A stretch of DNA of 64,000 nucleotides from Desulfitobacterium dehalogenans ATCC 51507. GTDB taxonomy: Bacteria; Bacillota; Desulfitobacteriia; Desulfitobacteriales; Desulfitobacteriaceae. Position 1 is the first letter of the stretch; each line of letters begins with the position of its first letter. The notes below the pieces were generated by a model. It was not told where the DNA came from and ran no database searches. It worked only from the letters and a program-made list of their open reading frames with translations. Of the stretch, positions 6,038 to 57,680 are shown piece after piece. The translations under genes were made by a program, and so were the position numbers. The stretch is taken from positions 3,038,001-3,102,000 of the forward strand of contig NC_018017.1 of NCBI RefSeq assembly GCF_000243155.2. Direction: 5' to 3'.

Positions 6038-6173
6038 GCTTGTGGGTCTTTCTTAGCCCTTTTTGGGGTCTTTTTCAGAGTAGACGGTCATGCCGCTGCC
6101 GTAGCACCAGCAGAGGATGAAAAGGGCGATACGAGTCGGGTAGCTGCACTGTTCAGACCCGAAAGATAACCCA

Positions 6174-6380
6174 AGGATTTTGCTTTACAAAAGTGAGCGA
6201 ATTTAAGCGAGCGGTAACAAAACTTCGCGAAAAGCATGTAGCGGAGAAAGGTTGGAAACAGGACGTTTCCAACCGGCCATTGAGCAGGAGCGATTTGGCC
6301 GGGCACCTTTCGGAGCGGAGAGCTTGAGCGTTAGTTTTGTCCGCGCAGCTTATGGAGCGAACGGTGTAAAGCAAAATCCT
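6174..6380. repeat. Large imperfect palindrome 2 (207 bp)
   Basis: Perfect 16-bp outer arms (AGGATTTTGCTTTACA) lie at 6174-6189 and 6365-6380. The arms continue imperfectly for about 85 bp each, sharing ACAAAACT and GAAAGGT. Near the middle a perfect 10-bp hairpin, GGTTGGAAAC/GTTTCCAACC, occupies 6250-6274. It appears homologous to the element at 5861-6037. The 136 bp between the two (6038-6173) hold no gene that I can recognise. Confidence 0.7.
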
Positions 6381-6418
6381 GGAGAATCAGTTGACAAGTC
6401 TTTTTCTAAGTACAACAA

Positions 6419-18568: not shown

Positions 18569-19162
18569 TTATTTAAAATGACCCGCTGTTAAACTGTGGC
18601 TGCGAACATTTTTTAGTTCCTTGAGTTTTAACAGAATATAATACCAGGCACTAGGAAAGAGCAGCCCTGTTAATGAAAATAAATACCATGGTAAAGGGAT
18701 AAAATCACTTATGATGACTCCGGTCATGACATGGAGATACATTATCTCCATGGTGGCCTGCCCTAAAAACCCCAACACTTTACGAATCACCTTAATGCGG
18801 CTAAGCAACTTGCTTAAAAATGCTATGATTATTGTACACGATAAAGGGGTTAAAATAACCGTGCCAAAAAAATAATACTGGCGATGCTTTAAATCTAACC
18901 CAAAGCGAATCATGCCTTCATCATACAAATAGAAAAAGACTGTTAAATAAGCTATAGATCCGAGCAACAATAATCGACCTACTCGTTCTTTATTGAACCA
19001 ATCCTTTTCATGGAATAAATGCCCCAAAGCGTAGAAGATGATTCCAAATAGAGCAACATCCACATTCCCTGGTACAAAGATGTCTTGGTAATTCGTAGAT
19101 TCCCAATGAGCTATTCCGTAGAATACTATAATAATTAAACCTAAAAACCAGGAAGATTTCAC
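18569..19162 (-). pseudogene. Truncated acyltransferase-3 family membrane protein (C-terminal part)
   Basis: About 197 residues remain, with six hydrophobic segments and GQATMEIMYLHVMTG, which resembles the C-terminal region of the acyltransferase-3 (OafA-like) family. Full members have around ten membrane helices and 330 or more residues, with the catalytic His near the N-terminus. That half is absent. The frame stays open upstream to about 19198 and would read IRKVLYDFLQRK before meeting a stop, so the break lies just beside the rRNA region. There is no good start codon or ribosome site. It is most likely a decayed fragment. Confidence 0.6.
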
Positions 19163-19269
19163 TTTGCGCTGTAAAAAGTCATATAGAACCTTTCGAATGA
19201 GGTTATGAAGTTACTTCGCATGTTCTGCAGAAGGGAAAAGACCATCTTATTCAGACGGTCTCTTCGTTA

Positions 19270-19525
19270 CCCGGCAACACGAAAGGCGGATGAGCCTTTC
19301 GCCACACAGCCTCCACAGACGAACACTCCTGCCGTGTGGATACTAAGGTAGCGCGCCTCAGAAAGTCTATGTAGCAGTGTATCATCAGCCCTGAAGGTCT
19401 TAACTTCGTGTTCGGGATACGAAATGATGTAGTACATCATTTCGGCCAAGCCACACGGCCACATAAATCAACTACGTGGCGCCGGCGTAGGGGTGGTACT
19501 CCTCCGGTATGTTTTTTCCACCAGG
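19270..19525 (-). rRNA. 5S rRNA-like gene enlarged by two hairpin-rich segments (possibly a pseudogene)
   Basis: Three blocks of the normal 5S next door recur here in order. The first is CCTGGTGG...ATACCGGAGGAGTACCACCC at the 5' end. The second is ATCCCGAACACGAAGTTAAG and on through GGGCTGATGATAC in the middle. The third is GTTGCCGGG at the 3' end. Terminal CCUGGUGG and UUGCCGGG can still pair through G-U wobbles as helix I. About 70 nt replace the short stretch in the helix III region. About 100 nt replace the helix IV/V arm. Both inserts contain perfect hairpins, at 19420-19444 and 19280-19301. Length is about 256 nt versus 117. It is downstream of the normal 5S in the same operon. Confidence 0.6.
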
Positions 19526-19580
19526 AAAAAAGCTAAAACCATACCTAAACAAATTCCCCATACATAACCCACATAACTCA

Positions 19581-19610
19581 AATGGACTACGCATCACTGC
19601 ATAGTCCATT
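19581..19610. terminator. Hairpin between normal 5S and 5S-like gene
   Basis: AATGGACTA and TAGTCCATT form a perfect 9-bp stem right after the normal 5S 3' end. There is no strong T-run, so it may be a processing stem rather than a terminator. Confidence 0.4.
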
Positions 19611-19615
19611 CGCTT

Positions 19616-19732
<117 letters not shown>

Positions 19733-19872
19733 TCTTTATGTGGTTATCTTTGAGCGAACTTCCTGTTCCCTCAAAACTACACAGAGTCTTCTTCACTGTA
19801 ATTAAGCGTCCATCTTTCCTCACCTTAGTCTTGAGCCCCTCAGTGAGGTGACCTTTCCATGACCTTTCGTTA

Positions 19873-25037
<5,165 letters not shown>

Positions 25038-25319
25038 TTTATGAAGAACATTTGATTGCTCAAATTGTCTTTACTCATTTGACGAGTCATTGGCTGTTCC
25101 TTGTTGTTTAGTTTTCAAAGACCATGGACGGTCTGGGTGTCGCTGGAGCCATGGACGGCGGGAAGCGACCAAAGACCATCTTTTCTATTTGCTGTTTTCA
25201 GCAACGAGACTTATCTTAGCACTTTTTGCGACTTTCGTCAACTGCTAATTTTTCATTCCCTTACCTCTCGGTAAGAGGATGTTTTTTCGTCCGCCGCAAT
25301 TCAGTGGCGACATTTATAG

Positions 25320-57540: not shown

Positions 57541-57660
57541 CCCGGGAAAATAAGCTGCATTATTGCAGCTATTCTCCCGGGCTTTTATCCCTCCGTGATA
57601 CAGCCGTAGGCTGTCGTTTACTCTCGGACCAGGCCAGCGAACTGCGGAACCCTAGAAAAC
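57541..57660 (-). promoter_or_regulatory. Guanidine-I (ykkC) riboswitch with terminator
   Basis: The minus strand reads CTAGGGTTCCGC, then CTGGTCCGAGAG, then ACGGAGGGATAAAAGCCCGG, the conserved ykkC blocks in order. The final CCCGGG of the aptamer (57576-57581) can instead pair with CCCGGG at 57541-57546. That would form a strong terminator with an inner GCTGCA/TGCAGC stem and a following T-rich tract. Guanidine binding would hold the aptamer and let transcription reach the two SMR genes. Confidence 0.93.
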
Positions 57661-57680
57661 TACTTATTATTTTTGAGCAC

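Follow-up and report, generated by a model that had tools for sequence, protein, structure and literature searches.

A 5S-like gene of Desulfitobacterium dehalogenans as a probable decayed duplicate bearing two members of a dispersed double-hairpin element superfamily

Overview

A 5S-like gene that follows the normal 5S rRNA gene of an rrn operon by approximately 100 nt in Desulfitobacterium dehalogenans ATCC 51507 (∼19511–19265, minus strand) is very probably a decayed 5S duplicate into which two small hairpin elements have been inserted, a mobile-element explanation serving best overall. The two inserts stand out far beyond chance, as a search of all 64 kb with a model derived from copies dispersed in the chromosome singles out precisely these segments. 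The same insertions in otherwise intact 5S genes are the published 5S expansion segments; the locus by itself is ordinary for the genus, and its interest lies in the element family. Unless stated otherwise, coordinates refer to the window, the whole 64,000-nt stretch analysed (positions 3038001–3102000 of a single-contig genome of 4,321,753 bases).

The 5S-like locus

The rrn operon occupies the minus strand, with 16S at 25036–23355, 23S at 22926–19871 and the normal 5S at 19732–19616 (Rfam accession: RF00001; 99.6 bits). An exact 29-nt block and a 95%-identical 20-nt block are shared by the normal and 5S-like genes in the same order, in agreement with an earlier note on this DNA that had placed the 5S blocks in correct order and strand. 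Read along that strand, the locus opens with a hairpin, delimited from sequence, of the form T6CC-TGGT-GGA6 (TTTTTTCC-TGGT-GGAAAAAA; 19512–19531), which occupies the place of the helix I 5′ strand and is followed by what remains of the 5′ part of the 5S core, with the 5′ strands of helices II and III (19487–19511), recognised by its identity to the normal 5S. Insert 1 (M1; 19419–19486) is a 68-nt double-hairpin element that replaces CC of 5S loop C, as determined by comparison of filled and empty sites and by a full-length match to covariance model R2 (27.9 bits, E 1.2e-5). The middle core (19379–19418) comprises the loop C 3′ side, the 3′ strands of helices III and II and the start of helix V, and includes the 29-nt exact repeat of the normal 5S; beyond it, 37 nt at 19342–19378 probably represent a decayed helix IV/V arm, judged by comparison with loci L041–L044. 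Insert 2 (E1; 19279–19341) is a 63-nt double-hairpin element matched by model R1 (85.4 bits) and by R2, which was built from other copies (E 7e-6), and the gene closes with a 3′ relic delimited from sequence (helix I 3′ strand; 19265–19278). A terminator-like hairpin then follows on the same strand (AGACCRTCT..AGATGGTCT; 19239–19261), without a score in the consensus scan, of a type found after the normal 5S genes of other operons in this genome and also present in L035 and L036, so that the duplication probably covered both the 5S and its terminator.

Helices II and III, the start of helix V and the helix I 3′ strand are kept nearly intact, while the helix I 5′ strand has given way to the T6CC..GGA6 hairpin, one helix III G is missing and the helix IV/V arm is gone, replaced by ∼100 nt made up of the 37 nt of decayed sequence and insert 2. 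Within the decayed segment, CTGAGGCGCGCTACC is similar to the terminal part of E2, the element that occupies that place in D. dichloroeliminans. RF00001 leaves the 5S-like segment unrecognised even at E values up to 1, matching only the normal 5S, and helices I–V are not all present. At 140 kb, 225.5 kb and 2632 kb of the D. dehalogenans genome, 5S genes are likewise followed by comparable copies or fragments, as they are in the relative G002 and in D. dichloroeliminans, in the latter as a tandem array with a unit of ∼317 bp.

The insert dimensions given in the earlier note, ∼70 nt on the helix III 5′ side and ∼100 nt in place of the helix IV/V arm, correspond to the 68 nt of insert 1 (19486–19419, in loop C/helix III) and to the 37 nt plus 63 nt ending with insert 2 (19341–19279), and the reported GTGTGGC followed by a perfect CGAAA...TTTCG hairpin is present in both inserts. 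Its proposal that terminal helix I could still form through G–U wobbles calls for correction: the strand concerned, CCTGGTGG, is the tip of the 19531–19512 hairpin, and sister copies in the same genome (L034, L035) carry TTGC or TAGC tips where this copy has TGGT, hence a wobble-paired helix I is not conserved.

Architecture of the double-hairpin element

The element is 63–69 nt long and consists of a stem-loop A of ∼40 nt, followed directly by a palindromic hairpin of the form CG(A/T)(A/T)A...T(A/T)(A/T)CG and then by T, with A as the usual first base. In E1 of insert 2 this plan reads ATCCACAC-GC...GC-GTGTGG, then CGAAAGGC-TCATCC-GCCTTTCG, then T; E6 (∼64 nt) is built on the same plan, as ACCTGCGCCGC...GCGGCTTGGG, then CGAAACCC-TCGCCC-GGGTTTCG, then T. 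E6 was found through weaker matches to R1, a model derived from an alignment of 22 E1 copies, and occupies ∼20 chromosomal places in D. dehalogenans within a larger dispersed repeat. Compensatory changes are observed in both stems of E1, nearly all of them full Watson–Crick exchanges with few G–U steps, and a conserved GGAG lies inside stem A.

Covariance model R2 was built from 15 chromosomal E6 copies, none of them in 5S genes. Searched without filters across the whole 64-kb window, it returned insert 2 (E 7e-6) and insert 1 (E 1.2e-5) as its top two matches, both end to end (model positions 1–64 of 64), with the third at E 0.56. Since a model built outside 5S genes ranks both inserts highest, both belong to one superfamily with other members mostly outside 5S. 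Genome-wide, R2 gave 40 matches in D. dehalogenans and 26 and 21 in two congeners. Pairwise similarity joins M1, E3 and E6, E1 to E6 (z up to 16) and E2 to E3 (z 8). Rfam offered no convincing family for the inserts, whether in searches of the 5S-like segment (E up to 1) or of ten large-repeat loci (E up to 0.5).

Insertion sites

Comparison of filled with empty sites revealed that the element stands in exchange for a pyrimidine dinucleotide (YY, on its own strand) at all ten sites, six of which lie within 5S genes; of the other four, two are nested inside other elements and two are in unrelated repeats. In 5S loop C, CC is replaced by M1 and, elsewhere, by an E1 that has a single additional G on its left side; E1 also replaces CC after GTTAAGA and TC after GTAGG. 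Reverse-oriented E2 replaces the TC of CAAGTA-TC-ATCAGC and, with one base altered on its left side, the CC of 5S helix IV, so that junction imperfections of a single extra or changed base are confined to two of the ten sites (E1 in loop C and helix IV). The empty counterpart of the helix IV site was read from a locus comparison, the scripted comparison having missed it in the locus supplied. Nesting is represented by E3, which takes the place of CC in an E1 hairpin loop, and by E6, which takes that of TT in the palindrome of an E2. Outside 5S genes, a hairpin of a Desulfosporosinus array, GGCCAA-TC-CATGGCC, adjoins a copy in which TC is replaced by E1, and a fixed site in the large repeat of D. 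dehalogenans is empty in 15 copies (∼38 nt) and filled in 18 (∼100 nt); the two lengths differ by exactly 64 minus 2, and identical flanks recur in several copies of either form. The window holds one such large-repeat copy on the minus strand (6153–6390), its site empty (CC at 6301–6302), with at least 40 genomic matches and both filled and empty forms elsewhere.

With an expectation of one quarter per site, YY at ten of ten sites would arise by chance roughly once in a million, no more than a rough figure, since the analyst both selected and read the junctions. Neither a target duplication at the filled sites nor a fixed left target was found, the flanks being GTTT, AAGA, TAGG, AGTA, TCGT, ACCA, CCAA and GTGC. 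Both orientations occur, E2 in 5S and E6 at 225.6 kb being reversed. Read against the 5S structure, most targets fall in loops, junctions or hairpin tips, with at least one 5S site (after GTTAAGA) in a stem. At the level of sequence comparison, the element is shown as a discrete unit in unrelated contexts, in both orientations and nested in other members, and as replacing YY without target duplication; the earlier note's suggestion of a small palindromic element inserted into a duplicated 5S gene is upheld by its dispersed copies, filled and empty sites, nesting and both orientations.

The large palindromic repeat itself (∼230–400 nt, at least 40 genomic places) has outer ends that form the inverted repeat CCAGGATTTTGCTTT / AAAGCAAAATCCTTGG. 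A second small hairpin, CGAAAGCACTGCTTTCGCACTTGTT, is present at a fixed place in some copies (L123, L126) and absent in others (L122, L132), and is perhaps another element type.

Distribution

E1 has been found almost exclusively in Desulfitobacterium, Desulfosporosinus and close kin: the R1 search identified it in 32 of 46 family genomes, at up to 65 copies per genome, with Desulfosporosinus as the E1-rich genus. Beyond the family it returned no copy, either in the rest of the order or among 398 genomes sampled from the phylum. A search for the exact E1 pattern with one genome per species matched only Desulfosporosinus records and one Bacillota bin, a set from which records near D. dehalogenans were possibly excluded. 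No match was found in the plasmid collection, and viral contigs lacked an exact match to the E1 core, so that nothing points to carriage by phages. Of 35 copies inspected in one complete chromosome, 28 lie outside 5S genes; most dispersed copies there share one host hairpin, and independent insertions are therefore far fewer than copies. Within 5S genes, E1 has been found at three different sites, in different arrays. Five tandem E1 units with a 60-nt period are present in Desulfosporosinus sp. BG (L218:359–627). A literature search, with most subscription journals outside its reach, found no described repeat of this kind in Desulfitobacterium or Desulfosporosinus.

Alternative explanations

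An enlarged but functional 5S rRNA, or a regulatory RNA derived from 5S, with the inserts as conserved functional arms, would account for the conserved core blocks, the strong fold (the segment folds better than its own shuffles, z −3.1), the similar copies in relatives and the compensatory changes in both stems, which could also be read as RNA function. However, the gene lacks the helix I 5′ strand and helix IV/V and goes unrecognised by Rfam, no promoter-like site was found on the minus strand in 19150–19900, including the stretch between the normal 5S and the 5S-like copy, insert-family members lie mostly outside 5S genes and in both orientations, and normal 5S genes coexist at several operons; such a function is very unlikely. 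A large functional 5S rRNA is accordingly not supported at this locus, nor is the structured, possibly functional variant RNA, likened to that of Halococcus, that the earlier note had offered, given the broken core, the lack of a promoter-like site on the strand and the location of most insert-family members of the same genome in non-5S repeats. It is highly improbable that RNases excise the inserts as intervening sequences and leave a fragmented but working 5S, an excision raised as a possibility by Stepanov and Fox (PMC7812874): the 5S core is incomplete even without its inserts, and although the 16S and 23S genes of the same operon also carry inserts, neither R1 nor R2 matches these.

Movement of REP-like elements by a RAYT (REP-associated HUH transposase) is unlikely, even with the small dispersed hairpins, the GGAG conserved in E1 stem A and the presence in many carriers of Y1 transposase genes similar in length to RAYTs, as a family palindrome was found nearby at only one of 12 such loci and two carriers, G003 (D. 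dichloroeliminans) and G018, have no Y1_Tnp match. The RAYT/Y1 transposase was consequently rejected as the mobiliser, a candidacy left unsupported by a search of 41 genomes and a reading of the flanks at the 12 loci. The ends of rrn operons are difficult to assemble, but the modules recur elsewhere in this genome and in ∼30 separately assembled genomes, leaving an assembly error with a negligible probability.

Proposed origin and mechanism

The locus very probably arose by duplication of a 5S and terminator unit at the end of the rrn operon and decay of the copy, into which two double-hairpin superfamily members inserted; the remnant at 19378–19342 suggests a third insertion. The effect of the insertions on the 5S-like copy is disruptive or neutral. 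The element may move as DNA, for which a single-stranded, hairpin-folded intermediate would fit, with an enzyme supplied in trans as the candidate mover. Filled copies may then have spread and multiplied by gene conversion and unequal exchange among 5S-like arrays, and the tandem 60-nt E1 arrays (L218) probably arose by unequal exchange.

It is tentatively proposed that the family may constitute a new kind of bacterial mobile element, a ∼65-nt double hairpin that replaces YY, nests within itself and is moved by a system yet to be recognised, a proposal that is possible but short of probable. If true, a new kind of element, often entering hairpin loops, would build complex structured repeats and supply rRNA expansion segments.

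Relation to known systems

For the Peptococcaceae, Stepanov and Fox in 2021 listed expanded 5S rRNAs together with 5S pseudogenes that bear insertions, doubted the ribosome fit of the Desulfitobacterium expanded 5S and did not settle where the insertions come from (PMC7812874). The expanded 5S of D. dichloroeliminans LMG P-21439 is given there as NC_019903 complement 2241573–2241816 (PMC7812874), and an E1 copy at 2241583–2241645 of the same species (G003) falls inside it; one of the listed expansion segments is an E1-type double-hairpin element. The present locus is like these cases in genus, in its place behind a normal 5S and in the kind of insert, and shares the traits used for 5S pseudogenes, namely a position behind the normal 5S, a missing terminal part and large insertions; D. 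dehalogenans is not among the species named in the accessible part of that paper, which likewise neither identifies the inserts as a dispersed mobile element nor gives an insertion rule (PMC7812874). The locus is one more such 5S pseudogene, and the present analysis adds what its inserts are.

In plan and behaviour, the closest analogues are the mitochondrial double-hairpin elements, hairpin-forming elements and GC clusters, which comprise one or two hairpins, are dispersed, also occur in rRNA genes, merge and shuffle, and move by an unknown mechanism (PMC2800124, PMC4478555, PMC5910586). The likeness is one of plan and behaviour, and the host compartment differs; moreover, yeast GC clusters are described with short direct repeats at their edges, which the double-hairpin elements lack. 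REP sequences and REPINs are likewise small, non-coding, dispersed hairpins of bacterial chromosomes, but the double-hairpin elements show no RAYT association (elements flanked a RAYT-like gene at one of 12 loci) and carry GGAG inside stem A and not at its foot. MITEs and IS200/IS605-derived palindromic elements are also short, non-autonomous and hairpin-forming, whereas the double-hairpin element, with ends ATCC...CGT, has neither the terminal inverted repeats nor the target duplications of class II MITEs, nor the fixed short target left of the element that characterises IS200/IS605.

The origin of insertions in rRNA genes, whether expansion segments or intervening sequences, is an old open question, for which a donor of bacterial 5S insertions is here visible: one unit that occupies 5S genes, other repeats and further copies of itself, with empty sites lying next to filled ones. 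The dinucleotide-replacement rule provides a precise clue to the enzyme, and some ‘expanded 5S rRNAs’ may be element-hit pseudogenes.

Other features of the window

The 16S gene carries an insert of ∼110–130 nt at helix 6 (V1; 24961–24828, minus strand), and the 23S gene an apparent insert of ∼110 nt with a long stem (∼21702–21584, minus strand). Both were considered as copies of the double-hairpin element and rejected, their sequences differing and neither R1 nor R2 providing a match; the 16S insert is not a member of this family. Upstream of 16S (25120–25180, minus strand), two hairpins with tips CCGTCCATGG resemble H1, the E1-carrying host repeat of Desulfosporosinus. A Guanidine-I riboswitch is located at 57572–57666 on the minus strand (80.4 bits).
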